NCBI GenBank assembly: GCA_016219275.1
Contig: JACRBM010000033.1
Span: 1-50,842 of the forward strand
Source: Chloroflexota bacterium
GTDB lineage: Bacteria; Chloroflexota; Anaerolineae; UBA4142
DNA length: 50,842 nucleotides
Reading direction: 5' to 3'
The translations under genes were made by a program, and so were the position numbers. The notes under the pieces are model-generated. The model was given only the letters and a program-made list of their open reading frames with translations. It had not been told where the DNA came from and did not search any database. Shown here piece by piece: positions 154-48,983 of this stretch; position 1 is the stretch's first letter; each line of letters starts with the position of its first letter.

Positions 154-1590
154 TCATTCGTTGCCAAAACTCGCGCGATGAATTTCTCTAGCGGCGCGCA
201 ACCCCGATTCAATCGCGCCTTGGATCCACGCGTGCGCGAGCGACGCGTGCTCGCCCGCAAAATGGATGCGTCCTTCCGGCGCGATGATCGCGTTGTAGAG
301 CAAGGTCTGTTGACCTGGGTCGAATAACGCGAATGCGCCTGCCGCGAATTCCGCGTTGTGCCACACGTGCGATACGCCCACTTCGAATTCGGTCGTGATC
401 TGCGGATGAATCTGCGCGACATCTTCGAGCGCCTGCTCGATGCGGTCGCGCGGCGAGAGCGACGCCCAACGTTCCGCGTCTTCGCCCCAGGTATAACTCG
501 CGAGCATGACGCCACGCCCGGTCTCGCGATGGTGATCGGGATAGTACATCACGCGCACCGGCAAATCGCTGATCGTACCGCCGCCGAAGATGCCGTCATC
601 TTCTTCCCAGAATCGTCGTCGGCATTGAAATAGGATTTTCGCGGACGCGTCGTAATGCGCTTGGCGAATCGCGCGTTGCTTGGCGCGCGAGAACGGCTTG
701 AGCACTTCGATGTGGCGCAAAACTGGGAACGGCGCGGTGATGATCGCGTAATCACCGGTCGCCGCCATGCGCCCTGCCGCCGTCTCGTAGTGAATCGTCA
801 CCGAGGTCGGCGCTTGATCCAGCGCGATCATCTTCGCGCCGAAACGAATGCGGCTACGCAGCGCCGGCATGAATGCGCGCGGCAAATGGTCCATCCCGCC
901 ATCCAATTCGATCATGTTCGTGTAATAATTGCCGACCTCTTCGCGCAATAGTTCGAGGAACGATGTGTTCATAATCGCTTCTTGATCCGCGAGCAAACCG
1001 TACATCTCGATCGCGCCTTCCGACCATTTGCGCGATTCCAAAAATTCGCGGATCGAAAATTCGTCGTACTCGGCGACGATTTCGTCCCACGCGTGCGCGC
1101 CGCCGCTTTCCAACTTTTTCACGATGGGTTGAATCGCTTCCTCCCACAACTGCGCGTACGATTTACCGCGTTCGTGCGCGGCGACCGCGAAACCCAGCCC
1201 GTCCGGGTTCGCCTTCGCTTCGGACACGCGCGTCCGTCGTCCATTGATGAAATAGTACGCGTTCGCGTTGCCCATCGTGAACGGCGAATACTCGAGTTGG
1301 AATTTTTCGATGTATGCCATCGTCAAGTCGTGCACCCTGGGAATACGCATCGCGCCGGCTTCGGCGTACAGCCCATCGCTGAACGGTTCGCGCAACGTGT
1401 AGATGCGCCCGCCGACGCGCGGTTGCGCTTCGAGGACGAGCGGCTCGTGCCCGGCGCGTTGCAATTCGTACGCCGCGGTCAAGCCCGCCATGCCTGCGCC
1501 GACGATGACGACCTTTTGCGGTCGCGTCGCCATCGGCATTAGTCCATTCTGTATGATGGCGAGATAATCTCGCGTATCGGTTGGTTGCAT
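154..1590 (-). CDS. Flavin monoamine oxidase / L-amino-acid-oxidase-like FAD protein
   Basis: Predicted FAD-dependent oxidase of the amine oxidase superfamily, 478 aa, oxidising an amine or amino acid; the substrate cannot be told. The Rossmann motif VVIVGAGMAGLTAAYEL lies near residues 27-43, followed by the GGRIYT flavin-binding signature and an E-A-G-A-M-R segment typical of L-amino acid oxidases. The C-terminus has the conserved FAGEHASLAHAWIQGAIESG, which closes the FAD site in this family. There is no signal peptide, so it should be cytosolic. The ATG at 1590 has an AAGGAG ribosome site 5 nt upstream that overlaps the priA stop, so the two genes are probably co-transcribed. Confidence 0.85.
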   Translation of the reverse strand: MQPTDTRDYLAIIQNGLMPMATRPQKVVIVGAGMAGLTAAYELQRAGHEPLVLEAQPRVGGRIYTLREPFSDGLYAEAGAMRIPRVHDLTMAYIEKFQLEYSPFTMGNANAYYFINGRRTRVSEAKANPDGLGFAVAAHERGKSYAQLWEEAIQPIVKKLESGGAHAWDEIVAEYDEFSIREFLESRKWSEGAIEMYGLLADQEAIMNTSFLELLREEVGNYYTNMIELDGGMDHLPRAFMPALRSRIRFGAKMIALDQAPTSVTIHYETAAGRMAATGDYAIITAPFPVLRHIEVLKPFSRAKQRAIRQAHYDASAKILFQCRRRFWEEDDGIFGGGTISDLPVRVMYYPDHHRETGRGVMLASYTWGEDAERWASLSPRDRIEQALEDVAQIHPQITTEFEVGVSHVWHNAEFAAGAFALFDPGQQTLLYNAIIAPEGRIHFAGEHASLAHAWIQGAIESGLRAAREIHRASFGNE

Positions 1591-1599
1591 ATCACTCCT

Positions 1600-4134
1600 T
1601 TACAACACACTCACCGGGTCCACATCCACGCGCCAGCCGAACGGCAGCGCAATGTCTGCCACGAGCGCGTGCGGTTCTCGACCGCGCACCAGGATTTGAT
1701 AACGGAATTGTCCGCGCTCTTTCGCGAAAAACGCCGGCGCGGGTCCGATGAGATCGAGCGCGGGCAAGCCGCGTTGCGCGATACGCGTCGCGAGCGCGCG
1801 GTGCACGCGCGCCGATTCGGCTTGCGCTTGTTTCGCGTTCGGATGCGTCAAGACCAAGCGAATCAAACGATTGAACGGCGGATAACCTTGCTCGCGGCGG
1901 AACGCAATCTCGCGTTCGTAAAACGCGCGATAGTCGTGATGCGATGCAGCTTGAATCGCGTAATGGTCCGGGTTGTACGTCTGCACGATCACTTTGCCGC
2001 CCAGAATGCTGCGCCCCGCGCGTCCGGCAACCTGGGTCAACAATTGAAACGTGCGCTCGGTCGAACGAAAATCCGGCAAATTGAGCGCGGTGTCCGCGCT
2101 GATCACGCCGACGAGCGTCACGAACGGCAAGTCCAATCCTTTCGCGATCATTTGCGTGCCGACCAAAATGTCCGCGCGACGCTGAACAAAATTTTCGAGA
2201 ATCTCTTCGTGCGATTCCTTGCCGCGCGTCACGTCGAAATCCCACCGTAGTGTTTTCGCCTGCGGGAACAAATTCTGGATTTCTTGTTCGACTTTTTCCG
2301 TGCCCACACCGAAATAGCGAATGCGCGCGCTTTTACAAACCGGACACTGGGTCGGCACGCGGTCGCGCCGATTGCAGTGATGGCAAATGAGTGAATCGCC
2401 GACGCCGTGGTACGTCATCGGATTATTGCAACGTTTGCACTTGAACACGTTCCCGCAATCGCGGCAAAGCACGAACGTCGCCGAGCCGCGCCGATTGAGA
2501 AAGAGAATCACTTGCTCTTTCGCCGCGAGCACGCGCGTCATTTCGCGTTGCAGCGCGCGTGAGAACATCGAACGATTGCCCGCTTTTAGTTCAGCGCGCA
2601 AGTCCACGATGTCAATCGGCGGCAAATCGAGATAACGCGCGTCGGCGTGTTCGTCATCCAATTTATGGAGCGCGAGCTTTCTTTTCGGTAATTGGTAATT
2701 GGTGATTTCGTTCGCGATAACTTGGGCGTGTCCCATCACGCGTTGCGGCATCTCGAGCAATTTGATTTCGCCGCGGGTCGCGCGATAGTACGTTTCGAGA
2801 TCGGGCGTCGCGCTACCGAGAATCACGCACGCACCGACGCGCCGCGCGAGTTCGATTGCGGTTTCGCGCGCGTGATAATGCGGAACCGTTTCTTGTTTGA
2901 ACGCGGGATCGTGTTCTTCATCGAGTACGATCAAGCCGAGGCGCGGCAATGGCGCAAAGAGCGCCGAGCGCGCGCCAATCACAATGTCCACCAAGCCGTC
3001 GCGGCAACGTCGCCACGTGTCGTAGCGTTCGCCCTCGGAAAGTTTCGAGTGCACGACCGCGATTCGATTGGGAAAACGCGCGCCAAACCGGCGAATCGTC
3101 TGCGGCGTCAGCGAAATTTCCGGCACGAGGGCAAGACCTTGCTTGCCCTGCGCGAGAATTTCATCAAGCGCGCGTAAGTAAATTTCCGTCTTGCCTGAGC
3201 CGGTAACGCCATGAAGCAAAAAGGTAGTAGGCGTCTGCTCATTCCGAATTCCGAATTCAATCGCCTCCCACGCGGCTTGTTGTTCCGTCGTGAGCATCGG
3301 CGGCTCGACAACATCGAACACGCGTCCGGCGAGCGAATCGCGCATGACCTCTTCTTCTTCGAGCGCGACGACGCCCAACGTTTCCAAGCGGCGCAGATGC
3401 GCGAGCGTGCAATCTGTATTCGCGTACACGGCGCTGACCCAGATCGCGCCATCTTCGTTTTTGAGAAAATCAACAATCGCGCGATAACGTCCCGACAATT
3501 CTTTGGGACCCTGCAATGCCAGCGCATCGGCGTTGACCAAACGTACTGATTTGACGCGGCGCGGTTTTGCGCGCGGCGGTGGGATGACGGTGCGCTTGCT
3601 GATGATTTCGTGACGCACGAGACTATCAACCGTGCCGCGTAAATCGCGCGGGACATTGCCCAGTTCGATTTCCGGTTTATTTTCAAATAACGCCATGAAC
3701 GCGGCTTGCTTTTCGGTAAGGTCTTCACCTAGTGATTTGCCGGTGAGCGCGAGGAGAATTTTCGGCGTTTGCTCGACGCCGAGCGGAAGCATCAGTTGAA
3801 TCGCATCGTTGAGCGAGCAGAGATATTCGCGCGCGATCCATCGCGCGAGGTCGAGATGGATTTCGGAGAGGAAAGGGCGCGGGTCAACGATCTCGTCAAC
3901 GTCCTTGGTTTCAGCCACGGGCGACGAATCGCTGAACGCGATGACGACACCTTGCAGGCGACGCACATTAAACGGTACCCAGACCAGTTGTCCCAGTGCG
4001 AGCTTGTCCGCGAGGCGCTCGGGAATCGCGTACGTAAATGTGCGCTCGCGGAGTGATTCGGCGAGCGGCACATTTTCTTCGCGTGATTGGGTGACGCCCA
4101 GCGGCGTGTTGACGACGATTTGCGCGTATTTCAT
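1600..4134 (-). CDS. priA: Primosomal protein N' (replication restart helicase PriA)
   Basis: PriA reloads the replisome at stalled forks; 844 aa, normal to slightly long. Visible parts: N-terminal DNA-binding region (KYAQIVVNTPLG start), Walker A GVTGSGKTEIY, DEEHD box (Walker B), and the eight-cysteine zinc region made of four CxxC pairs (CRDC, CKRC, CHHC, CPVC), followed by the C-terminal helicase lobe with AGRAGR. ATG at 4134 was chosen. A TTG three codons earlier is possible, and neither has a clear Shine-Dalgarno. About two thirds along, the peptide EITNYQLPK is encoded by a 21-nt heptamer repeat (2687-2707) unlike the surrounding codons. A terminator-like hairpin sits immediately upstream. 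Confidence 0.95.
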   Translation of the reverse strand: MKYAQIVVNTPLGVTQSREENVPLAESLRERTFTYAIPERLADKLALGQLVWVPFNVRRLQGVVIAFSDSSPVAETKDVDEIVDPRPFLSEIHLDLARWIAREYLCSLNDAIQLMLPLGVEQTPKILLALTGKSLGEDLTEKQAAFMALFENKPEIELGNVPRDLRGTVDSLVRHEIISKRTVIPPPRAKPRRVKSVRLVNADALALQGPKELSGRYRAIVDFLKNEDGAIWVSAVYANTDCTLAHLRRLETLGVVALEEEEVMRDSLAGRVFDVVEPPMLTTEQQAAWEAIEFGIRNEQTPTTFLLHGVTGSGKTEIYLRALDEILAQGKQGLALVPEISLTPQTIRRFGARFPNRIAVVHSKLSEGERYDTWRRCRDGLVDIVIGARSALFAPLPRLGLIVLDEEHDPAFKQETVPHYHARETAIELARRVGACVILGSATPDLETYYRATRGEIKLLEMPQRVMGHAQVIANEITNYQLPKRKLALHKLDDEHADARYLDLPPIDIVDLRAELKAGNRSMFSRALQREMTRVLAAKEQVILFLNRRGSATFVLCRDCGNVFKCKRCNNPMTYHGVGDSLICHHCNRRDRVPTQCPVCKSARIRYFGVGTEKVEQEIQNLFPQAKTLRWDFDVTRGKESHEEILENFVQRRADILVGTQMIAKGLDLPFVTLVGVISADTALNLPDFRSTERTFQLLTQVAGRAGRSILGGKVIVQTYNPDHYAIQAASHHDYRAFYEREIAFRREQGYPPFNRLIRLVLTHPNAKQAQAESARVHRALATRIAQRGLPALDLIGPAPAFFAKERGQFRYQILVRGREPHALVADIALPFGWRVDVDPVSVL
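2687..2707. repeat. STRR-like heptamer repeat inside priA
   Basis: Three tandem heptamers, ggtaatt ggtaatt ggtgatt. Being 21 nt long, they keep the priA frame and add seven codons. The same heptamer family occurs in intergenic DNA at 22476-22511 and 49953-49968. Confidence 0.75.
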
Positions 4135-4140
4135 AAAAAT

Positions 4141-4168
4141 CAAAAAGTCGGGAGGGTGAGTCCCGACT
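4141..4168 (-). terminator. Terminator-like hairpin just upstream of priA
   Basis: On the minus strand, an 8-bp stem (AGTCGGGA / TCCCGACT, arms 4161-4168 and 4146-4153) with a 7-nt loop is followed by UUUUUGAUUUUU. It lies 54 nt past the MEMO1-like stop and ends about 12 nt before the priA ATG. It may end the upstream transcript or attenuate priA. Confidence 0.6.
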
Positions 4169-4222
4169 GGATGATACTCGAATCGTTCTTTTTACGCAAT
4201 GCCCATTTCCATATTTGCCTTT

Positions 4223-5098
4223 TTATTTTTTACTTTTGTACGCTGCCGCCGCCAAGTACCCGACGACATAGTCGGCGTGCTCGCGTTCGCCGGTCACGTC
4301 GCCAGAGTTGGTGCGGTGCAACACACGCACGCGGTCTGCGCCGAGCGCTTTCGCCGCGAGCAACGTCGTGATGATCGGCGCGTCGCCGCAAGCGCGGCAC
4401 TCGCCGGTCTGCCACGCATAGTCCGCCAACCCAGGAATATCGAACGCGGCGATCAATTCTTCGGTGCGCGCGTCGAATTTTTTGACCGCGTGATAATCGG
4501 GCAAGTGCGACAGATCCGAACTCGCGACGAAGAGAACGCGCCGCTCGCGCGCCAGCTCGGCGAGCGCATTGGCAAGTAGCGTGCACGTCTCCAGCGCGCG
4601 CGCGCCGACGATGTAGAACGGCATGGACAACATCAACGGCACAAGTTTGAAATTGAGGAGCATCCGTTGCAAAAAGGGAATCTGAATTTCGAGCGAGTGT
4701 TCGCGGTCGCGTTCGACCGGCGTCAAGGCAATTTGGCGAGATAATTTCGTAATGAAATCTTGATCGAGTTCGATTTCGCCCAAGGGGGTCCAGTAAAATT
4801 TTTTCGTGGTTACGGCAACCGCGCCAAAATCGTCGTAATGGCTCGGACCGAGCAACACGACGGCGTCATACTGGTGTTGTTCAAGTTGACGATACGCGTG
4901 CGCGGCAGTCTGCCCAGAGTACGGATAACCGGCATGAGGAGAAATGAGCGCAATCAGTTCGTCGTCAGTTGAAATCCTTTCGGCGCGCGCAAGATAATCG
5001 TCAACCGTTGCCTGCAACTCGTCCGGCTTGCCGGGATACCATTTCCCGGCGATGGGCGACTTGCGAATGGTGCGTGGATCAATCGTACCCGTTGTCAT
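4223..5098 (-). CDS. AmmeMemoRadiSam system protein B (MEMO1 family)
   Basis: 291-aa protein of the MEMO1/AmmeMemoRadiSam B family, related in fold to extradiol dioxygenases. The conserved ISPHAGYPYSG motif (about residues 50-60), the GPSHY motif and the later SSDLSHL segment are all present; these carry the metal-site histidines of the family. The biochemical role is not established. The usual partners, an AMMECR1-domain protein and a dedicated radical-SAM protein, are not nearby. ATG at 5098 was chosen; a GTG at 5104 in the same frame is equally possible, and neither has a strong ribosome site. It lies 41 nt after infA, so is probably in the same operon. Confidence 0.85.
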   Translation of the reverse strand: MTTGTIDPRTIRKSPIAGKWYPGKPDELQATVDDYLARAERISTDDELIALISPHAGYPYSGQTAAHAYRQLEQHQYDAVVLLGPSHYDDFGAVAVTTKKFYWTPLGEIELDQDFITKLSRQIALTPVERDREHSLEIQIPFLQRMLLNFKLVPLMLSMPFYIVGARALETCTLLANALAELARERRVLFVASSDLSHLPDYHAVKKFDARTEELIAAFDIPGLADYAWQTGECRACGDAPIITTLLAAKALGADRVRVLHRTNSGDVTGEREHADYVVGYLAAAAYKSKK

Positions 5099-5139
5099 CG
5101 CCACACTTCACCCGCGAGGTCACATCCAAAACGTTACGA

Positions 5140-5394
5140 CTATTTCTTGAAACGATACGTGATGCGTCCGCGCGTCAAATCGTACGGCGAGAGTTCCACC
5201 GTCACGCGGTCGCCCAGCAGAATACGAATATAGTACATTCGCATTTTGCCGGAAATGTGCGCCAACACCGAGTGCCCGCTTTCCAATTGCACGCGAAACA
5301 TCGCGTTGGGCAGCGCCTCGGTGATGACGCCTTCCGCCTCGATTACGTCTTTCTTGGCTTTCTTTTCTTCTCTGTTCTGGACTGGTCGTGCCAT
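5140..5394 (-). CDS. infA: Translation initiation factor IF-1
   Basis: 84-aa IF-1, which binds the ribosomal A site during initiation. The S1-like OB fold is clear: [52 protein letters not shown]. It has a basic N-terminal extension of about a dozen residues ([15 protein letters not shown]) relative to the usual 72-residue protein. The start at 5394 is fixed by AGGAGG a few bases upstream; the longer open frame runs into a hairpin repeat and is not coding. Its place after ftsK rather than in a ribosomal-protein operon is unusual. Confidence 0.93.
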
Positions 5395-5425
5395 ACATCC
5401 TCCTGACCTCACCCCTAACCCCCTG

Positions 5426-5476
5426 CCCCCTTCCCCCTCTCCTGAACGAAGTTTGTTCAGGAGAGGGGGAAGGGGG
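5426..5476. repeat. Perfect 22-bp inverted repeat between ftsK and infA
   Basis: The arm at 5426-5447 (C-rich, ending cctgaac) is perfectly complementary to 5455-5476 (gttcaggaga through aaggggg), with a 7-nt loop. There is no U-tract on either side, so a classical terminator is unlikely. It may be a REP-type element or an mRNA-stability hairpin between two co-directional genes. Confidence 0.75.
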
Positions 5477-5510
5477 TGTCCGAAGGACGGGGGATGGGGA
5501 TGAGGCAATT

Positions 5511-7778
5511 CTATTTTTTCTTCTTCGGCGGTTCCTCCGCCTCGAACTCTTTGATGTCTCCGTCGTGAATCAACACCGCGCGCGGTTTGCCGCCGCCTTC
5601 ATCCGGTCCCACGATGCCGCGATCTTCGAGTTGATCCATCAACCGCGCGGCACGCGGATAGCCGATACCCAGCTTGCGTTGCAAAAACGAAATCGAAGTC
5701 CGGTCGAACTGTTGCGCGATGTCAATCGCCTGCTCGATGAGCGCCTCATCGCCGCCGTCCTTGCCATCGCCCATCGCCTTCCAGGGCGCATCCTGCGGCA
5801 CGTCACGCATATCGGTGATCGCTTTCTCGCGCCAGAAATGCACGACGCGCGCGATTTCATCGTCCGACACGAAACAACCCTGCAAGCGCGATAGTTTCGA
5901 CGAATCGCTCGCCATGTAAAGCATATCGCCCTTGCCCAGCAATTTCTCCGCGCCGGTCGTATCGAGCACGACGCGCGAATCCACACTACTCGTGACCGCG
6001 AACGAAATACGCGATGGAAAATTCGCTTTGATCAACCCGGTCACGACATCCACCGACGGACGTTGCGTCGCGATGACCAAGTGAATGCCGGTCGCGCGCG
6101 CCATCTGTGCGAGACGCGTCAATAATTTTTCGGTTTCGTCCGGCGCGGCGAGCATCAAGTCCGCCAACTCGTCAATCAACGCGATGAGGTATGGCATCCG
6201 GTTCTCGCCGTTCTCTTTTTCCATTTTGTCGTTGAACGCTTCGATATTACGGACGCGTTCTTTCGCGAACAACGTGAACCGCGCATCCATCTCGCGCACG
6301 ACCCAGCGCAACGCCGGCACCACCTCTTGCATGTTCGTAATGACCGGACCGAGCAAGTGCGGAATGCCGTTGTACGCGGTCAACTCGACGCGTTTCGGAT
6401 CCACCATCACAAAGCGCAAATCGTCCGGTGAATTGTTCATCAACAAGCACGCGATAATCGTGTTGACGCACACCGACTTGCCGGAACCGGTCGCACCCGC
6501 GATGAGTAAGTGTGGCATGGATTGCAAATCGGCGACAGTCGAACCACCGGACACATCGCGTCCGAGCGCGATGCGCAGCGACGATTTCTTTTTCTTGAAC
6601 GCCTCGCTCTCGACGATGCCGCGCAGCGACACGAGCGACACGGAATGGTTCGGCACTTCGATGCCGACAATCGCGCGACCCGGCACCGGCGTTTCAATGC
6701 GAATCGGCGCGGCGGCAAGCGCGAGTTCCAAATCGTGTTGCAAACTCGCGATGCGATTGACCGACACTTTACGTTGGCGCACGACGCCATCCGTGCCGCG
6801 TCGTTCGACGAACCCAGGTTCCAAACCGAATTGCGTGATCGTGGGACCCGCGTTGATTTCGACGACCTTGGCGGGAATGCCAAAGTTGTCGAGCGTCTCT
6901 TCGATGAGCCGCGCTTTGCGATTCGCGTCCGTCTCGCCGTACTTGCTCTCGTTCGACGCGTCGAGCAGATCAATCGGCGGGAGCAGATTGCCGCGGCGGC
7001 GCGCCCGACTGCGCGGCGAGAGAACCAGTTGCGGCGCGACGGGCTTGAGCGGCAAACGCGGCTGAATCGGTTTGCCGAACACGGGACGCGGCGCGTCGGC
7101 GGGCGTAGGCGGATGAATGCGCGGCGCGGGTTCGACCCTGGATTTTTCCGGTTTTATTTTCTCTTCGACCGGTGCCACACTGGGTCGCACGACCGGTCTC
7201 GCGCGCGGGGTGATGTTCGCGCGCGCGGCGAGCGCATCGCTCCACGCGTGCAAACGCGTCGCGCTCATCCCAATCACCGCCGGCAGAGTCAACAGCGCGA
7301 TCGCGATCAACACCATCGCGCCGCCGGTCGCGCCGAGCGCGTTCGCGATAGGACTACTGAGCGCGTATCCGACAAAGCCACCACCCAGACCTTTTTCCGC
7401 GAGAACGCCCGCGTTCACCGCGGGCGTAAGCAAATGCGTCAACGCGATCATCGCCGCGCAAAACAGTTCGAACGCGAATACGCGACCCCAGGCAACGCCG
7501 ACGATCAAGTTCGTGCCGCGCCGCAACAACAAGACGCTCGCGCCGAACGCGATCACCGGCAATGCGTACGCGCCCCAGCCGAACATCTTCCACAACAAGT
7601 CCGCCCACAGGTCGCCGACGAAACCGAACGCCAACCGGAATAAACTTGCGCCGGTGAATACGCCGACCGCGAGAAACACAATGCCCGCGAGTTCGCGTTG
7701 CAGGCGTGGTGTGAATCGTTCGCGCGCGCGCGTCCAAAATGTTTTCTTTTCGTCCGACTTGGTTCGTTTCGGTGGCAT
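5511..7778 (-). CDS. ftsK: DNA translocase FtsK/SpoIIIE
   Basis: 755-aa septal DNA pump that moves chromosome ends during division. The N-terminal ~200 residues hold about four membrane helices (for example [19 protein letters not shown]). A proline- and arginine-rich linker follows, then the RecA-like motor with Walker [16 protein letters not shown] and the LIDELADLM Walker B. The C-terminal winged-helix gamma domain ([20 protein letters not shown]), which reads KOPS-like sites in known members, is followed by a lysine-rich tail. The ATG at 7778 has no obvious ribosome site. Confidence 0.95.
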
Positions 7779-40299: not shown

Positions 40300-43080
40300 G
40301 TGGCTCGCCTGGACTTGCATCTTTTTGGCGCGCCGCGTCTCGAACGCGACCACACACCGGTCCATTTCGAAACGCGCAAGGCGCTCGCCTTGCTCGCTTA
40401 TCTCGCACTGACGCGCACGCCGCACCGCCGCGATACACTCGCGACCTGGTTTTGGCAAGAGAGCGATCAGACGCACGCCCGCGGCGCGTTGCGGCGCACC
40501 CTCGCCGCGCTGAACGCGGTGGACGCCGACTGGCTCGACACAGACCGCGAAGTGATCGCGCTCAACCCGCGCGCATCGCTGTACGTAGACGTGTGCGCGT
40601 TTCGCGATCTGCTCGCGTCGTGCGCGCCGGCGAACGACGGTACGCGCCTCGATTCGCTCACGCGCGCGGTCGAAATTTATCGCGACGATTTCCTCGCCGG
40701 GTTTTCGCTGCGCGATTCGCCGGCATTCGACGAGTGGCAATTCTTCCAGACCGAGCAACTTCGCCGCGAATTGGCGAACGCGCTCAAACAACTCGCACAG
40801 TTGCAACGCGCGCGCGGCGAGTACGCGACGGCGCTCGCGCACGCGCAACGGTGGCTCGCGCTCGATCCACTCCACGAACCGGCGCATCGCGAATTGATGC
40901 GCGTGTTCGCTAAAGCCGGCGAACGCGAATCCGCGTTGCGACAGTATAACGAATGTGTGCGCGTCCTCGACGCCGAACTCGGCGTGCCGCCGCTCGAAGA
41001 AACGACGCGGCTGTACGAAGCGATCAAGTCAAGTCATGCGGCACAAATAAAAGAATCTGCTCCCTTGCTCCCTAGCCCCCCTACCCCCTTACCTATCGTG
41101 GGTCGGACAAACGAACTCGACACACTCCACGCGATTCACGCCTCCATCCAAACCGCCGGACATCTCGTGCTCATCGAAGGCGAACCCGGCATCGGTAAGA
41201 CGCGGCTCGTCGAAACATTTCTTGCCGATGCGAACGCGCCGGTCGTGATCGCGCGTTGTTACGAGGGCGAAACCGGGTTGACGTTCGCGCCGATCCTGTC
41301 TGCCTTGCGCGCGGCGTTGAGCAATCGCGACGCGATGCAACGCGTGACGCGCTTGCCCGCGCACTGGGTCAGCGAAGCCGCGCGGCTCTTGCCGGAAATC
41401 GGTACGCCGCCAACCACGCCAATCGAATCGCCTGGCGCGCAAAGCCGTTTCTTTGAAGGCATCGCACGCCTGCTCGATACGCTGCTGCACTCGACGCGCC
41501 CCGGCGTATTGCTGATGGATGACGCACACTGGGCAGACAACGCGTCGCTCGACCTGTTCGCGTTTTTGGCGCGACGTTTGCGCGAACATCGGTGGCTGAT
41601 CTTGCTCACCGTGCGCGAGTTACCGACCCAGCATCCGCTCAAACATCTCGTCGCCGAACTCGCGCGCGCGGGACGCACAACTGAATTGCCGCTCACACGA
41701 CTCGACGCGTCGGCGGTGTGTGAACTGACTCGCGCGTTCGGCTTGCCGGAAAATGTCAGTGCGGATTTGTTCACCGAATCCGAAGGACTGCCGTTCTTTG
41801 TCGTCGAGTACCTTCACGCGTTCGCCGCGTCGCCGGACAAATTCGATTGGCGTCTGCCGGACAGCGTTCGCCGGCTCGTACGTTCGCGGCTCGACGCGGC
41901 GAGTGAGACCGCGCAACAATTGCTTGGCGCGGCGGCGGTCATCGGGCGCTCGTTCGATTTCGACACGTTGCGCGACGCGAGCGGGCGCAGTGAAGACGAA
42001 ACGCTTGCCGCGCTCGAAGAATTGCTCGCGCGCGGCTTGGTCAAGGAAATGGAAACGCCGGGCGCACAGTACGATTTCAGCCACGATAAATTGCGCGCGT
42101 TCGCGTACGATCAACTGACGCACGCGCGGCGACGCTTGTTGCATCGCCGCGTCGCGGACGCGCAAATCGCGCGGCATCGTCAGGACGCAGGCGCGTGGGC
42201 GGCGCACATCGCGAATCATTTGCAACTCGCCGGGCAAAATGAATCGGCGGGCGCGTATTTCAGAATCGCGGGCGATCACGCGCGCACCCTGTTCGCCAAT
42301 CGCGAAGCGCTCGCGCACTACACGACTGCGCTCGCGCTGACCGGCGACGCGACACTCCATGAACCGATCGGCGACCTGCGAACGTTGCTCGGCGAATTCA
42401 GTGCGGCGCTCGCGAGCTACGCGGCGGCAAGCGCCGCGCCGCACGCGCGCGTCGAAAGCAAAATCGGCAACGTGTACGCGCGGCGCGGCGAGTGGGAATC
42501 TGCCGTGTGTCATTTTCAAAACGCGCTGACCGCGTTGAATGGCAACAGCACGCCCGACGAACACGCGCGCATCTACGCGGATTGGAGTTGGACGGCTTTT
42601 CGCGCTGGGGACAAGGCAGAGGCAATGGATCTGGCGGAACGCGCGCTCGCGCTCGCGCAAAAGGCAAACGATGAGTACGCGCTCGCGCTCGCGCACAATT
42701 TGCTCGGCATCCTGGCGAAGAACGCCGGCGAGTTGGATCACGCGCGCGAACATTTCGAAACGAGTCTCGCGCTTGCCGAAACGTTGAGCGATCCGAGCGC
42801 GCGCATCGCCGCGTTAAACAATCTGGCGCGCGCCCATGCCGCGAGCGGCAACCTTGCGCGCGCCATCGCGTTCGCCGAGCGCGCGCTTGCGCAATGCGTC
42901 GCGCAGGGCGACCGTCATCGCCAAGCCGCGTTGCGAAATAACCTGGCAGATTTATTGCACGCTGCCGGAAAATCTGCCGAAGCGATGTTGCAACTCAAAC
43001 AAGCGACCGTACTGTTTGCCGAAATCGGCGCAGAATCCGGCGAGACACAAACGGAGATTTGGAAATTGGTCGAGTGGTGA
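40300..43080 (+). CDS. BTAD-domain transcriptional activator with AAA ATPase and TPR
   Basis: 926-aa regulator of the SARP/MalT-like architecture. Residues 1-100: OmpR-like DNA-binding domain (LHLFGAPRLERD … FETRKALALLAYLALTRTPHRRDTLATWFW). About 100-245: BTAD domain (ALAHAQRWLALDPLHEPAHRELMRVFAKAG). Near 290: Walker A GEPGIGKTR; Walker B LLMDDAHWAD. The C-terminal third is TPR repeats (ALAHNLLGILAKNAGELDHAREHFETSLALAE). GTG at 40300 follows GGAGGG. It is next to a divergent acyl-CoA dehydrogenase, a possible target. The ligand is unknown. Confidence 0.9.
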   Translation: MARLDLHLFGAPRLERDHTPVHFETRKALALLAYLALTRTPHRRDTLATWFWQESDQTHARGALRRTLAALNAVDADWLDTDREVIALNPRASLYVDVCAFRDLLASCAPANDGTRLDSLTRAVEIYRDDFLAGFSLRDSPAFDEWQFFQTEQLRRELANALKQLAQLQRARGEYATALAHAQRWLALDPLHEPAHRELMRVFAKAGERESALRQYNECVRVLDAELGVPPLEETTRLYEAIKSSHAAQIKESAPLLPSPPTPLPIVGRTNELDTLHAIHASIQTAGHLVLIEGEPGIGKTRLVETFLADANAPVVIARCYEGETGLTFAPILSALRAALSNRDAMQRVTRLPAHWVSEAARLLPEIGTPPTTPIESPGAQSRFFEGIARLLDTLLHSTRPGVLLMDDAHWADNASLDLFAFLARRLREHRWLILLTVRELPTQHPLKHLVAELARAGRTTELPLTRLDASAVCELTRAFGLPENVSADLFTESEGLPFFVVEYLHAFAASPDKFDWRLPDSVRRLVRSRLDAASETAQQLLGAAAVIGRSFDFDTLRDASGRSEDETLAALEELLARGLVKEMETPGAQYDFSHDKLRAFAYDQLTHARRRLLHRRVADAQIARHRQDAGAWAAHIANHLQLAGQNESAGAYFRIAGDHARTLFANREALAHYTTALALTGDATLHEPIGDLRTLLGEFSAALASYAAASAAPHARVESKIGNVYARRGEWESAVCHFQNALTALNGNSTPDEHARIYADWSWTAFRAGDKAEAMDLAERALALAQKANDEYALALAHNLLGILAKNAGELDHAREHFETSLALAETLSDPSARIAALNNLARAHAASGNLARAIAFAERALAQCVAQGDRHRQAALRNNLADLLHAAGKSAEAMLQLKQATVLFAEIGAESGETQTEIWKLVEW

Positions 43081-43110: not shown

Positions 43111-44532
43111 TCATGACATTCTTCGTAACGCCGCGCGCGCGGCGTGATAACCGCACATTCCATGCACACCGCCGCCCGGCGGTGTGGACGACGAGCAAAT
43201 GAAAACATCTTTTGCCGGCGTCGTGTACGGATTCCAACGCCACGTCGGGCGCGTGTAGAGTTGCCACAAATCTTGCGCGCCGCCGGAAATATCGCCGCCG
43301 ATGTAATTCGCGTTGTGTTGCTCCATCAGCGCCGGCGTGTACACGTGTTGCGCGAGAATACAATCGCGAAAACCCGGCGCAAAGCGTTCGATCTGCGCGA
43401 TCATGCGCGCCGTCATGTCGAAGGTCGAACCGTTCGGCACGTGACAGTACGACCAAACGGTATGTTTGCCGCGCGGCGCGCGCGTCGCATCGAATAGCGA
43501 TGCCTGGACGACGAGCATGTACGGTTTTTCCGGCGGTATCCCCTCCGCCGTCTCGCGTTCCGATTGCGCGATCTCGGCGAGCGTGCCGCCGACGTGAACG
43601 GTCCCCGCGCGGCAACACCCCGCTGCCTTCCACGGAATCGGCGCGTCGAGCGCGAAATCTATTTTGAACACACCCGGTCCGTAGCGAAATTTTTCGAGCG
43701 CGCGGCGATAGCCGGACGTGAAACGATGCCCGGCGATTTCGAGCAATTGGCGCGGCGTCACATCGAAGAGGTACGCGCGCGCGCTAGGTAGTTCCTCGAT
43801 TTTTTCGATGCGCTGATTCGTGATGATCTTGCCACCGAGCGAACACAAATACGCGCCAAGCGCATCCGCCAACTTTTGCGAGCCGCCTTTCACGAGGGGC
43901 CAGCCACTCGCATGCGCCGCAATGCCGAGCGCGAGTCCGTACGCGGCAGTCGAGATATTTTCGAGCGGCGACATGGTGTGTGCGGCAATCCCGGCGAACA
44001 AGCCGCGCGCGCGTTCTTCCTCGAAGAAAAGTTCGGCGAGCGCACGCGCCGGTAAAAGCGCGGGGAGCGCAAAGCGTGCGAATGTGAATGGATAGCGCGG
44101 GGGAAGCGGAAGTGGTCCGAGCAAATCGTGATTGAGTTTTTCCGCGTCGTTGACGAGCGGCTCGATGAGATTGCGATACGCGTTCGCATCGCGACCCAGG
44201 GTCGCGCAGGTCGCGTCCATCGAACGCGAGAGCACCGCCGCCGTACCATCGTCGAGCGGATGCGCGAGCGCGGCGGCCGGGTAAATCAGCTCGACCCCCA
44301 GGTTTTGGAGCGGCACACTTTTGAAAAACGGCGACACGGCGGTGAGCGCCTGCACCGTCGAGCAAATATCGTGCGTGAAACCGGGCAGCGTCAATTCAGC
44401 GGAGCGAATGCCGCCGCCAATCGTCGCGTTCGCCTCGAACACGCAGACCGACTTGCCCGCGCGCGCGAGCGTGATCGCCGCCGCCAGTCCGTTCGGTCCC
44501 GCACCAACGACAACCGCGTCATACGCGGACAA
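43111..44532 (-). CDS. FAD-dependent oxidoreductase, phytoene-dehydrogenase-like
   Basis: 473-aa flavoprotein of the phytoene desaturase/amine oxidase superfamily. The dinucleotide motif VVVGAGPNGLAAAITLARAGKSVCVFEA opens the protein, followed by GGGIRSAELTLPGFTHDICS, as in the NAD(P)/FAD-dependent branch of CrtI relatives. The C-terminus has GGGVHGMCGYHAA closing the FAD site. Its TTG start at 44532 follows the stop codon of the protoglobin-Rieske gene directly (TAG-TTG) with GGAGCG upstream, so translation is coupled. This pairs it with a Rieske protein that could act as its electron partner. The substrate (isoprenoid, fatty acid or other) is unknown. Confidence 0.85.
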   Translation of the reverse strand: MSAYDAVVVGAGPNGLAAAITLARAGKSVCVFEANATIGGGIRSAELTLPGFTHDICSTVQALTAVSPFFKSVPLQNLGVELIYPAAALAHPLDDGTAAVLSRSMDATCATLGRDANAYRNLIEPLVNDAEKLNHDLLGPLPLPPRYPFTFARFALPALLPARALAELFFEEERARGLFAGIAAHTMSPLENISTAAYGLALGIAAHASGWPLVKGGSQKLADALGAYLCSLGGKIITNQRIEKIEELPSARAYLFDVTPRQLLEIAGHRFTSGYRRALEKFRYGPGVFKIDFALDAPIPWKAAGCCRAGTVHVGGTLAEIAQSERETAEGIPPEKPYMLVVQASLFDATRAPRGKHTVWSYCHVPNGSTFDMTARMIAQIERFAPGFRDCILAQHVYTPALMEQHNANYIGGDISGGAQDLWQLYTRPTWRWNPYTTPAKDVFICSSSTPPGGGVHGMCGYHAARAALRRMS

Positions 44533-45837
44533 CTACAGTCGCTCCACGCGCGCGCGCTCGCCATCCAGCGCGACGCGATACCGGGTCAGTGGTTTCTTCG
44601 CTGGACCGCGCACGACGTTGCCGGTCCCCACATCGAATTGGGAACCATGCAACGGACACGTAATCGTACACTCGACCAGATCGCCTTCGCTCAACGGACC
44701 ACCGGCGTGCGTGCATTCGTCCTGGGTCACGAATAAAGTCCCCTCCACATTGAACACCGCGACGCTTTCCCCGTCCACTTGCACCGCCTTGGATTTCCCC
44801 GGCGGAATATCGCTAACGAGAAACTCATTCGCCGGCAAATCAGTCTTGGATTGCACCGGCGCCGTCGTCACCGGAACTTGAATATAAACCTCGCCATCGC
44901 GCAGCATAACCGGATATTGTTCGAGCCGCGCACTGGGATCAACGAGCAATTGCCCGCTCATCAAGTTGTACTCGAATCCATGCCAGGGACACGTGAGCGT
45001 ATCGCCTTCGAGACAGCCGGTCGCGACGGGTCCGCCGCGATGCAAGCACCAATTTCGCACGGCGTACCAATTGCCCTTGTGATGAAAAACCCCAATGGAG
45101 AGTCCATCTATTTGGATCAATGTCCGGTCGCCGTCCGGAATATCGGGCGCGCGCGCGACCAGGACTTGGCGCGTCGCAACCGGCGCGGCGGGCGCGTGTT
45201 CGTGTTCGTACGCGTGCTGTGCCAACGCGCTCACCGCGCTTGTGTCAACCGACACCAACGCGTCGAACGTCTCGGCTTCGCGCTCGGTGCCGTACGCACG
45301 CGCGAGCATTTCGAGGATCACCATCAACAACTTGTCCCACGCGTCCACTGCGCGATGTTCCAACCCGGCGTCACCCTCGCGCAGTTCTTTGGTCAATGCC
45401 GCGGCAATCGCGTGTTGAACGAAACCAACTTGACCGATAACATAGCGTTCGGCGATGTAAATGTGCGGATCGGCGCCATGCGAAGTGTGTGCGCGTCCAA
45501 CGTAATCCACATAGCGCGCATAATCGTCATCGTAGACGCCTTGCGCGGTCCGAATCCAAAAATTAGTGAGGTGCCGCATGCGTAGTTCAACATAGTCTTG
45601 GTCCACCACGCCATCTTTTTTGAGAAAAAATTTGCGCGTCGGTGGGTAGCGCAACAGGTGCGCGTAAAACTTGGAAACAATTTCAGGTAAATGTTTTTCG
45701 ATCACCGGCGCGGATTGCCGAATGGCTTGAACGTCGGCGTCTTTAAGACCAACAAAGTCCGCCATGTATTTGAAATAGCGTCCCGCATCTTCTGCGCCGC
45801 GCTTTGCCATCACGCTCACATGCACGTTTGCATCCAC
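44533..45837 (-). CDS. Protoglobin fused to two Rieske [2Fe-2S] domains
   Basis: 434-aa fusion. Residues about 15-190 resemble a protoglobin/globin-coupled-sensor domain, with candidate proximal haem ligand H117 in VGRAHTSHGADPHIYIAERYV. Two Rieske domains follow: C264-x-H266…C283-x2-H286 (CLHRGGP…CPWHG) and C375-x-H377…C394-x2-H397 (CTHAGGP…CPLHG), both with full ligand sets. A haem gas-binding domain joined to two redox centres suggests O2 or NO sensing or reduction. GTG at 45837 was chosen because AGGAG lies 10 nt upstream; an ATG at 45897 in frame (20 residues longer) has no ribosome site. It is translationally coupled to the FAD enzyme downstream. Confidence 0.88.
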   Translation of the reverse strand: MDANVHVSVMAKRGAEDAGRYFKYMADFVGLKDADVQAIRQSAPVIEKHLPEIVSKFYAHLLRYPPTRKFFLKKDGVVDQDYVELRMRHLTNFWIRTAQGVYDDDYARYVDYVGRAHTSHGADPHIYIAERYVIGQVGFVQHAIAAALTKELREGDAGLEHRAVDAWDKLLMVILEMLARAYGTEREAETFDALVSVDTSAVSALAQHAYEHEHAPAAPVATRQVLVARAPDIPDGDRTLIQIDGLSIGVFHHKGNWYAVRNWCLHRGGPVATGCLEGDTLTCPWHGFEYNLMSGQLLVDPSARLEQYPVMLRDGEVYIQVPVTTAPVQSKTDLPANEFLVSDIPPGKSKAVQVDGESVAVFNVEGTLFVTQDECTHAGGPLSEGDLVECTITCPLHGSQFDVGTGNVVRGPAKKPLTRYRVALDGERARVERL

Positions 45838-45908
45838 GAGACTTTTTCTCCTTTTAGCCGTCAGCGGCTCGGTGTTGCTTTTCCGCGTCGCCAACATGGT
45901 ACGCGGTC

Positions 45909-46426
45909 TTAGAAAATCCAGTAAACCAGCATCGTGATGCCAGCGACGATAAGACTCAAAATGATCGAACCGACCACACCTTCGAAAACGCGACCAGATG
46001 AAATCGGTAGTCGCGATAACCCGCCGTGCCTTCTGTGCCAGGCAATACGACCAACCTGGGATGCAACGTGACGAAGATGATCCAATCGAGAATGATCAAA
46101 TCCATCGCGTTGAACACCGTCATCATCACCATCACCGCGAGCGCGACTTCGAGAAACGATAGCTCACCACCTTTGAGTTGCCCCAACTCCATCAACGCGC
46201 CGACAAAAATCGCGATGAATGCGATCACGACCGGCAACGTGACCACGTGTTTTTGTCGCTGCGCGTTTTCCCTCATCGCGCCAAAACGCACTTGAATGTC
46301 CGGCGGATAATCCTTGAGCCAGATTTCCGGATTCACCAACGCAATCACTATGAACGACACAATCATCAGCGCGCCAAACAGTGTGCCGTACATGATACTA
46401 TGCTGAAATAATAGGAGCAGATTCAC
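45909..46426 (-). pseudogene. Four-helix membrane protein with a single-base frameshift near its end
   Basis: Reads as a ~172-aa membrane protein. GTG at 46426 overlaps the stop of the upstream gene (GTGA). Helices: MYGTLFGALMIVSFIVIALV, VVTLPVVIAFIAIFVGALMEL, FLEVALAVMVMMTVFNAMDLIIL, and a last helix SIILSLIVAGITMLVYWIF that lies in another frame. The shift falls at a run of four T (45985-45988): one more T would give …FHLVAFFEGVVGSIIL… and restore the full protein to the stop at 45909. So the break may be a recent mutation or a sequencing error, not true loss. The family is not recognised. It is between a soluble unknown and the protoglobin-Rieske gene. Confidence 0.8.
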
Positions 46427-47166
46427 GATTTGCCTCGACCACTTACCCAGCGTACCGGCGCGCCGACGTTGTAGAGCAAGGTACGGAACATCGCGTTCTG
46501 CCACGTATTCTTGACGTACTGCCACTGCATTTTCGGATCCACACAGGTCTTGGTCATGTTGACTTGACCATTTACGCCCCAACGCGTGGCGAGTTGCGTG
46601 AGTACATGCATCCATGTGGACTCTTGCTCATGCGCGCCGCCGAAGAAACGCATTCCCATTTCATAAATCGGATCGGTTGCGCGATACAATCCTTGAACCT
46701 GCGCTACCGTCACATCCTCTTCGACGGACGCGCTAAACGTGTTCCAGCCGGAAATCGGAAATCCTTCCGGCGTCATCACCGTAAATTGCTCGTCGTCGGC
46801 ATAAAGTATCATCACGCCGCTCTTCATCGGCGTCAGTTGTTTCATTGCCGGCGCTTGAAACATATTCAAATCAAAATAAACCATCTCGCCGGGCTTGACG
46901 CCATCGAGCGGCGGATAGACGCGATTTCCCGGCGGTTGAAATTTTGCAAAGTTGATTTTCCAATCGGCGATCACTTGCGCGGGTGTGACTTGGACACCGC
47001 TCAAACGGACGCGATAGGTCGCCTGCCACATCTGACCAAAACCCTGCAGAGCGCCGGAAACATGACGACCATCCACATTCACCGTCGTCACACCGGGCGG
47101 CACATTTTCCGGATGCAAGTGATGCACGGGTTTTGCCCATGCCAAATTGCGTGGGTCGTCGGACAT
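46423..47166 (-). CDS. Conserved hypothetical soluble protein
   Basis: 247-aa cytosolic protein that I cannot name. It is rich in aromatics and beta-like (GFGQMWQATYRVRLSGVQVTP; GEMVYFDLNMFQAPAMKQL; FTVMTPEGFPISGWNTFSASVEE), with a helical end (VLTQLATRWGVNGQVNMTKTCVD … WQNAMFRTLLYNVGAPV). A START/SRPBCC-like or lipid-binding fold is a guess. ATG at 47166 has GGAGG seven bases upstream. Its stop overlaps the start of the membrane gene and it lies 44 nt after the YyaL-like gene, so it belongs to the same operon as the protoglobin-Rieske protein. Confidence 0.75.
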   Translation of the reverse strand: MSDDPRNLAWAKPVHHLHPENVPPGVTTVNVDGRHVSGALQGFGQMWQATYRVRLSGVQVTPAQVIADWKINFAKFQPPGNRVYPPLDGVKPGEMVYFDLNMFQAPAMKQLTPMKSGVMILYADDEQFTVMTPEGFPISGWNTFSASVEEDVTVAQVQGLYRATDPIYEMGMRFFGGAHEQESTWMHVLTQLATRWGVNGQVNMTKTCVDPKMQWQYVKNTWQNAMFRTLLYNVGAPVRWVSGRGKS

Positions 47167-47210
47167 TTGCTCCTCCCCAAATGTAGAGTAAGTTTCCAAC
47201 TTGCCTTGCC

Positions 47211-48983
47211 CTATTGCAAAATCTGTCGCATCCCTTCGAGCACACCGCTTGCCTCGCTCGCCGGCGCGAGGCATTTTTGCCCGACGCAGACGTACGCGCG
47301 CGGCGTCACGTTCGCGGGATAACCCAGTTGCGCGATCCGCGCCACATCGCGCGCCGGATCGAGCACCTGCACGATTTTCGCAGGCGCGTATTCATCGAGC
47401 GCAGCGCGATGCAATGCGCGCGTGTGCGCATCATTCACATCGCCAACGATATGCACCGTGATCGGCTCGGTAAGCAAATGACTCACCGCGCGCGCGTATT
47501 CCGCCGCCATGAATCCGTACTTGCTGTACTCGCCGGCAAAGTACGCCAACGATTTTTCCGCCGCGTCGCGATAACGCTCCTCGCCGGTGAAACGATGCAA
47601 GCGCGTGAGTGCGTCCGCCATCGCCGCGTTTTCCGCGAGTGGATGATCGGGCACACGCAACAAGCCGAGCGTCTCATGCGCGCGCGGCTCGCTGATAAAC
47701 GCGCTCGCGTCGAGCAACTGGGCGAGTGCGAGATCGGCGAGCGATTGTGCGCGCGTCAGATGCGCGACATCGCCGGTGAATTGGTACGCGTCGAGATACG
47801 CGCGCGTCGTGTGCGCGAGATCCGCTAGTTGATTAGCGAGTTGTGGCGCGCCATCCGGCGTCGCATAGTGCAACAGCCCGACATCGGCGCGAAACATCGC
47901 ATTCCAAATTCGGTCGAGTGTTTTGAGCGCGAACGCGATCAACGATTCATCGCCGAGCGCGTGCGACGCTTCGAGGTAACCGTTCACCATCAATGCGTTC
48001 CAATCGGTGTAGAAATTACGATCCACATACGGCGCGACCAGTTTCGCGCGCTCGGCAAGCGGCAACGCATAGTACGCTTCGTCCGCATCCTGGGATCCAT
48101 AGAATCCACCGCGCGTTTGATCGCTCAGAGTCGCATTGAGATACGCGGTCATACTATTCATCGTCTTGACAAAAATCTCGCGCGGCGCAACCTGGTGCGC
48201 GTGCGCGAGAACCGCGAACAATTTCGCGTTATCTTCGAGCATCTTTTCAAAATGCGGCACGCTCCAATCACGCGTCGTCGAGTACCGGAAAAATCCGCCG
48301 GCTTCTTGATCGTACGTACCACCGCTCGCCATATGCGTCAGCGTAACCGTCACAACCGGCAATAGTCGTTCGTCGCGCGTCGCGTGATAGCGTTCGAGCG
48401 CGAGTTCAATCGCGTCGGTGTGCGGAAATTTCGGCTCCGTCCCGAACCCGCCGTGCACCGCGTCGAATTGATCGAGCACATCGCGCGCGACCGTATCCAC
48501 AATTGTTTGCGACAACGCGCCGCGCGATGAACGCGCACCGAGAGCTTGCTCGCGCTTGACGTTCATCTCGCCGATTTTCGCCAGGATGTCGAGTTTGTTG
48601 TGTTTGTACGCGTCGCTCACCTGCGCGAGGTACGCGCGCATTTGCGACGGCGGAATGTACGTTCCGCCGGTGAGTAATTCGCCTTCGGGTGTGAGAAACG
48701 CCGTTGTGGGCCAACCACCCAGGTTGTAGCGGCGGTTCACATCGGGGCGTTGATCGTTGTCCACGCGAATCGGGACAAAACGTTCGTTGATGAGCCGAAT
48801 CACTTCGCCATCCGAGTACGACGTTTCGTCCATCACGTGACACCAGTGACACCACACGGCGGAAATACCCAGCAGAATCGGTTTATCGTTTTGTTTCGCT
48901 TCCGCGAACGTTTGCGAATTCCAATCGTGCCAATTGATTTCGCTCGCGCGGTTGGGGCGCGGCGAGAAATGAAAGTGAGACAT
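47211..48983 (-). CDS. YyaL/SPATA20-like thioredoxin-domain protein
   Basis: 590-aa protein of the DUF255 family. The N-terminal thioredoxin-like domain has WCHWCHV (C45, C48) and an INERFVPIRVDNDQRPDVNRRY region. The long C-terminal part is an (alpha/alpha) barrel resembling glycan-processing folds (GGFFRYSTTRDWSVPHFEKMLEDNAKL; ENAAMADALTRLHRFTGEERYRDAA). The function of the family is unsettled. ATG at 48983 follows GAGG; the longer frame translates a heptamer repeat. It heads a minus-strand set leading to the protoglobin-Rieske gene. Confidence 0.9.
   Translation of the reverse strand: MSHFHFSPRPNRASEINWHDWNSQTFAEAKQNDKPILLGISAVWCHWCHVMDETSYSDGEVIRLINERFVPIRVDNDQRPDVNRRYNLGGWPTTAFLTPEGELLTGGTYIPPSQMRAYLAQVSDAYKHNKLDILAKIGEMNVKREQALGARSSRGALSQTIVDTVARDVLDQFDAVHGGFGTEPKFPHTDAIELALERYHATRDERLLPVVTVTLTHMASGGTYDQEAGGFFRYSTTRDWSVPHFEKMLEDNAKLFAVLAHAHQVAPREIFVKTMNSMTAYLNATLSDQTRGGFYGSQDADEAYYALPLAERAKLVAPYVDRNFYTDWNALMVNGYLEASHALGDESLIAFALKTLDRIWNAMFRADVGLLHYATPDGAPQLANQLADLAHTTRAYLDAYQFTGDVAHLTRAQSLADLALAQLLDASAFISEPRAHETLGLLRVPDHPLAENAAMADALTRLHRFTGEERYRDAAEKSLAYFAGEYSKYGFMAAEYARAVSHLLTEPITVHIVGDVNDAHTRALHRAALDEYAPAKIVQVLDPARDVARIAQLGYPANVTPRAYVCVGQKCLAPASEASGVLEGMRQILQ

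Follow-up and report, generated by a model that had tools for sequence, protein, structure and literature searches.

A protoglobin-type globin joined to two Rieske domains in Anaerolineae: a candidate haem redox chimera with built-in iron-sulfur centres

The window, that is, the whole stretch of 50,842 nucleotides of Chloroflexota DNA analysed here, carries a gene whose product joins a globin domain of the protoglobin type to two Rieske domains. The gene is a single uninterrupted frame on the minus strand, which ends at 44533 and has two possible starts, ATG at 45897 (454 amino acids) and GTG at 45837 (434 amino acids). The GTG is the better start, because a strong Shine-Dalgarno, AAGGAG, lies 10 nt upstream of it and the relatives have the same N-termini. 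Residue numbers in the fusion count from ATG 45897 (454 amino acids), and subtraction of 20 converts them to the numbering of the 434-residue product. The features of the locus are as follows.

43111..44532, minus strand: phytoene-dehydrogenase-like FAD oxidoreductase with a TTG start (open reading frame (ORF), Pfam/NCBIfam, junction, distribution)
44533..45837, minus strand: Protoglobin-Rieske-Rieske gene (ORF, Pfam, Shine-Dalgarno and N-termini of relatives)
44539..44832, minus strand: Rieske domain 2, residues 356-453, ligands C395, H397, C414 and H417 (Pfam Rieske 361-440, 2e4p, VIA-align, tree)
44866..45174, minus strand: Rieske domain 1, residues 242-344, ligands C284, H286, C303 and H306 (Pfam Rieske_2 247-340, VIA-align, tree)
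45280..45774, minus strand: sensor-type globin (Protoglobin) domain, residues 42-206 (Pfam, own-genome search, VIA-align)
45487..45489, minus strand: codon of His137, counterpart of the proximal His120 of Methanosarcina acetivorans protoglobin (MaPgb), invariant in 22/22 (phmmer alignment, conservation)
45664..45666, minus strand: codon of Tyr78, counterpart of MaPgb Tyr61 (B10), invariant in 22/22 (phmmer alignment, conservation)
45848..45853, minus strand: Shine-Dalgarno AAGGAG, 10 nt before the GTG (sequence)
45956..46615, minus strand: short membrane-protein ORF upstream, probably starting within the range given, without a Pfam family (ORF, Pfam)
46423..47274, minus strand: uncharacterised ORF upstream, no Pfam family (ORF, Pfam)

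Pfam, the domain search that the preliminary description had proposed as a check, detects Protoglobin and two Rieske stretches in the window protein, and relatives with 50-69% overall identity to it show the same domain order. The fusion is therefore neither a chance event nor an assembly artefact, and the claim that all three domains sit in one chain is confirmed by the uninterrupted frame, the Pfam matches and the relatives together. The reported coupling to the FAD gene is likewise present, since the stop of the fusion and the start of the FAD gene form exactly TAG-TTG at 44535-44530 with zero gap. A Shine-Dalgarno GGAG for the FAD gene lies 9 nt upstream of its TTG, inside the fusion gene. 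The two upstream ORFs (45956-47274, minus strand) possibly belong to the same transcript as the fusion and the FAD gene, and neither of them is conserved beside the relatives. A BTAD/AAA/TPR transcriptional activator is encoded on the plus strand of the window at 40300-43080 and converges on the FAD gene; in L101 an activator related to it (family F18; 4010-6847, minus strand) converges on the fusion gene.

The globin domain matches Protoglobin (PF11563) over residues 42-206 with E 3.6e-26 and 92.5 bits against a cut-off of 25. An AlphaFold2 model of the fusion protein, built with 22 aligned sequences (mean pLDDT 85.5, pTM 0.68), contains nine helices (residues 38-234) followed by two beta domains. 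In VIA-align comparisons, the globin part of the model superimposes on the AfGcHK globin 5ohe with Z 20.3 and an rmsd of 1.5 over 152 residues, on the globin-coupled sensor of Geobacter sulfurreducens (GsGCS, 2w31) with Z 18.4, on HemAT with Z 18.2 and on MaPgb (2veb) with Z 18.0 over 174 aligned residues. The globins of globin-coupled sensors as a group (AfGcHK, HemAT, DosC and BpeGReg) score Z 15.6-20.3, and the solved globins nearest by sequence are 2w31 and MaPgb. A 3/3 globin fold with a proximal histidine is found (Z 18-20 over 150-174 residues), which excludes the absence of such a fold, named in the preliminary description as the result that would undo its reading. Besides His137 and Tyr78, Trp114, Arg106 and Arg116 are invariant across the fusion alignment. 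Opposite MaPgb Phe93 (E11) the fusions carry Leu, Gln or Asn, in a helix where the alignment is uncertain. Judged by sequence and model, the domain is an S-family globin of the Protoglobin family (PF11563), and binding of haem b and of gas is predicted.

The two Rieske stretches have a total E of 8.1e-39 in Pfam, and NCBIfam places them near NirD and dioxygenase ferredoxins. Both contain complete ligand sets, C284-x-H286 with C303-x2-H306 and C395-x-H397 with C414-x2-H417. Residues 240-344 of the model fit NirD of Mycobacterium tuberculosis (4aiv, Z 15.8) and T4moC (4p1b, Z 15.1), and residues 354-454 fit BphA3 (2e4q, Z 17.7). In addition, Rieske 2 matches 2e4p in the sequence search (E 1.3e-16) and is 36-40% identical to BphA3 dioxygenase ferredoxins. 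Each domain thus combines a C-x-H ... C-x2-H set with the Rieske fold, and a cluster is predicted in each. By fold model and sequence, Rieske 1 is of the NirD/toluene-4-monooxygenase-ferredoxin kind and Rieske 2 of the aromatic-dioxygenase ferredoxin (BphA3) type. The chain stops after Rieske 2, and Pfam finds no catalytic domain of a Rieske non-haem iron oxygenase in it. BphA3, CarAc (for Rieske 2) and NirD/T4moC (for Rieske 1) agree with the fusion domains in fold and ligands; they are free small subunits, whereas in the fusion two Rieske domains in a row are joined to a haem globin.

Identity to the window protein across the alignment is highest in the globin (57-81%), followed by Rieske 1 (46-69%) and Rieske 2 (45-67%), and falls to 29-57% in the loosely conserved linker. 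In the window protein and the relatives scanned, a set without L102, no ligand of either Rieske domain is missing, and L102 is the one exception among the complete relatives. Its gene (1480-2859, minus strand) has an in-frame deletion that removes the C-x-H segment of Rieske 1 and keeps C-x2-H, either real or an assembly error. In a maximum-likelihood tree, Rieske 1 stands apart from Rieske 2 with support 100/100, and these two separate groups lead us to reject tandem duplication as the source of both domains. Rieske 2 groups with free ferredoxins of Anaerolineae and not with Rieske 1, and in L094 the third Rieske domain and Rieske 2 are sisters (96/92). From these placements it follows that the second domain was recruited separately and duplicated once. 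As read from the tree, the fusion family has gained electron carriers more than once.

The composition of the family is modular. A globin-Rieske form occurs in L062, L063 and L064, and the globin-Rieske-Rieske form in the window and fifteen relatives. L094 (2757-4394, minus strand, 545 amino acids) has three Rieske stretches after the globin, and L099 (127-1833, minus strand, 568 amino acids) is a single CDGSH-Fer4_19-CDGSH-globin-Rieske chain. From its sequence, the L099 chain is predicted to hold two CDGSH clusters, one Fer4_19 cluster, one haem and one Rieske cluster. A second family of chimeric protoglobins in Anaerolineae has, after the globin, a ThiS/MoaD-like beta-grasp domain that ends ...FPPGR; it is found in L067 (3132-4043, minus), L068 (3459-4379, minus; ThiS match E 3.3e-4, just under the Pfam cut-off), L069 (3665-4750, plus), L070 (3255-4139, minus), L071 (3520-4452, minus), L072 (3205-4128, minus) and L073 (3255-4193, plus).

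The fusion is uncommon and patchily distributed. Of 396 genomes sampled from the class Anaerolineae, 21 have a match at E <= 1e-25, a count that becomes about 19 after leaving out G060 (a free ferredoxin) and G016 (a decayed copy). These roughly 19 genomes are scattered over about ten families, and 6 or 7 of 20 genomes in the order carry the fusion. Three further fusions come from targeted relatives. The decayed copy, L065 of G016 (5841-6385, plus strand), has its N-terminal and Rieske pieces in different frames and has lost most of the globin. A sample of 400 genomes across the whole phylum contains no fusion besides that of the window. A scan of a genome collection, which depends on exact short peptides so that distant fusions in other phyla could escape it, returned four full-length matches, all in Chloroflexota/Anaerolineae, and every other match starts at residue 203 or later. 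Among plasmid records none covers 80% of the fusion query, and the matches listed are to the Rieske part only. As far as searched, the fusion is confined to the class Anaerolineae.

The genomic surroundings point to a possible redox partner for part of the family. A CDGSH-Fer4_19-CDGSH gene lies directly upstream of the fusion on the same strand in L095, L096 and L110, with gaps of about 73-90 nt; these three are close relatives of each other, and L099, where the same module is fused, belongs to another family. The protein is encoded in 11 of 22 fusion-bearing genomes and in 1 of 18 comparison genomes (p = 0.004, or 0.019 after four close relatives are collapsed), values that are indicative only, as the comparison set was a manual choice among relatives and the test takes no account of phylogeny. 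The window's genome lacks it and has only a 68-residue CDGSH frame. In view of its position next to the fusion in three genomes, its presence in the L099 chain and its enrichment, the CDGSH/Fer4_19 protein is a better candidate for a redox partner than the FAD enzyme for part of the family. None of the relatives examined has the FAD gene adjoining the fusion, an arrangement that among them is unique to the window. An orthologue of the FAD enzyme occurs in 13 of 22 fusion-bearing genomes and in 11 of 18 genomes without the fusion (Fisher p = 1), and genomes with both usually have them on different contigs, as in G010 (FAD protein 78% identical). On adjacency and co-occurrence we reject the FAD oxidoreductase as a partner, and it probably lies outside the fusion system. 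A BphA4-type ferredoxin reductase was also considered as donor and rejected, because the window's genome and nearly all of the relatives lack it. Apart from the CDGSH/Fer4_19 gene of three genomes, no operon is conserved, and other neighbours vary from genome to genome. Multi-pass membrane proteins ending ...RYRLYDIDIIIRRTLVYS... DRRFYRxKYDA... lie near four relatives (L005 3-2329 and 7366-11193; L097 12509-13795; L101 7539-10228; L102 302-1483), and those scanned have no Pfam family.

Taken from sequence, model and analogy, the fusion may be a chimeric haem redox enzyme that draws its electrons from iron-sulfur centres of its own and is functionally analogous to flavohaemoglobin, a proposal that we believe and doubt in equal measure. 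We read it in this way because of the folds, the invariant His137 and Tyr78, the Rieske ligands, the lack of an output domain, the repeated gain of carriers and the CDGSH link. The globin domain would bind haem through His137 and hold O2 or NO beside Tyr78. The tethered Rieske [2Fe-2S] domains would then pass single electrons to the haem, re-reducing it for turnover, and such transfer between the iron-sulfur centres and the haem is plausible. Rieske 1 would serve as the constant inner relay, and Rieske 2, together with Rieske 3 in L094, as an additional ferredoxin on the outside, where a soluble donor would dock. This donor may, for some lineages, be the CDGSH-Fer4_19-CDGSH protein, encoded adjacently or fused at the N-terminus. 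Candidate reactions at the haem are NO dioxygenation or reduction of NO, nitrite or peroxide, which the data do not tell apart. The fusion would thereby do the job of flavohaemoglobin with iron-sulfur centres replacing the FAD/NAD(P)H reductase. For this redox-enzyme model we infer the loading of haem and clusters, the direction of the electrons, the substrate and the donor. Against it stand the nearest solved globins, which are sensor domains, the signalling genes beside several relatives, the absence of the CDGSH partner from half of the fusion-bearing genomes including the window's, and the failure to find a BphA4-type reductase as donor in the window's genome or most others.

The strongest competitor is a gas or redox sensor, in which the globin would detect O2 or NO, the Rieske domains would report or set the redox state, and a partner regulator, possibly an RsbW/SpoIIE/STAS partner-switching protein or a nucleotide cyclase, would be controlled by contact. 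The best fold matches are indeed globins of globin-coupled sensors (AfGcHK, GsGCS and HemAT). Known sensors of this kind (AfGcHK, HemAT, DosC and BpeGReg) share the N-terminal globin fold, the proximal His and the B10 Tyr with the fusion, but they carry a kinase, GGDEF or methyl-accepting output where the fusion has two iron-sulfur domains; in none of the scanned chains does Pfam detect a transmitter or output domain, and only Rieske domains follow the globin in the window protein and those relatives. In L104 the fusion gene shares 4 nt with a gene for an RsbW-like ATPase. Downstream of the fusion come SpoIIE and STAS genes in L005 and L097, and cyclase-domain regulators are its direct same-strand neighbours in L061 and in L097, yet most relatives have no signalling neighbour or have differing ones. 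Chloroflexota genomes are in any case rich in signalling genes of the RsbW/SpoIIE/STAS/cyclase kind. Moreover, the repeated gain of electron-transfer ferredoxin domains suits catalysis better. We consider the sensor unlikely and favour the haem redox enzyme over it.

An oxygenase helper, with the Rieske domains acting as the ferredoxin of an aromatic or similar oxygenase and the globin supplying or gating O2, a role also proposed for Vitreoscilla haemoglobin, would agree with the closeness of Rieske 2 to dioxygenase ferredoxins (BphA3) and with the resemblance of Rieske 1 to T4moC and NirD; this explanation seems improbable, as no oxygenase gene is present among the neighbours examined and the window's genome, like almost all relatives, is without the BphA4-type reductase that one would expect beside ferredoxins of this type. 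The circuit first suggested, in which electrons would run from the downstream FAD enzyme through the Rieske domains to the haem, draws on the zero-gap junction and the internal Shine-Dalgarno, and we dismiss it as very improbable, since the adjacency is confined to the window among the relatives seen and the orthologue is equally frequent with and without the fusion.

The proposed redox enzyme has precedents in kind. Flavohaemoglobin (Hmp) and a truncated haemoglobin linked to nitrate reductase also combine a globin and an electron-delivery module in one chain, and globins paired with built-in or operonic reductases are NO dioxygenases (PMC3820574). In Hmp and the truncated haemoglobin the delivery module is an FNR-type FAD/NAD(P)H domain and the globin belongs to the F or T family, whereas the fusion combines an S-family globin with Rieske domains (and CDGSH/Fer4_19 in some members); Pfam finds no FNR-type domain in the window chain, which is thus not a flavohaemoglobin. 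Protoglobins (M. acetivorans, Aeropyrum pernix) share PF11563, the fold (Z about 18) and the equivalents of His120 and Tyr61 with the fusion. They are single-domain proteins, whereas the fusion has two Rieske domains, which sets it outside protoglobins in the strict sense; identity to them is only about 17%. In vitro, ferrous protoglobin reduces nitrite and ferric protoglobin isomerises peroxynitrite (PMC4020757). Known CDGSH-Fer4_19 proteins include chains laid out as CDGSH-Fer4_19-CDGSH, like the partner found in part of the fusion family, and CDGSH has been associated with Rieske_2 domains, in a survey where the word 'globin' has 0 occurrences (PMC5859297). In the open-licence literature we found no description of a globin or protoglobin with Rieske, or of a protoglobin with CDGSH, in one protein. 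The impression that this architecture is unlike described systems therefore holds within that literature, and the possibility that it is a common, already described family does not (about 19 of 396 genomes). Chimeric globins are a known kind, and within the literature searched the combination of protoglobin and Rieske is new.

We tentatively suggest, with somewhat more doubt than belief, that the family represents a new class of haem enzymes in Anaerolineae, in which a globin of sensor lineage would be driven for NO/O2 chemistry by a modular internal iron-sulfur wire and not by a flavin reductase. The wire would comprise one to three Rieske domains, sometimes with CDGSH and 4Fe-4S centres. A protoglobin-type globin with its candidate donors covalently attached makes iron-sulfur turnover and gas directly testable in one protein, and the natural series (one, two or three Rieske domains, and the CDGSH/Fer4_19 fusion) is a ready-made experiment on the contribution of each module. 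The sensor outcome, if true, would also be new, as a globin sensor with Rieske redox input. If the redox-enzyme reading is true, these proteins may show a new route by which a haemoglobin-like enzyme receives its electrons.
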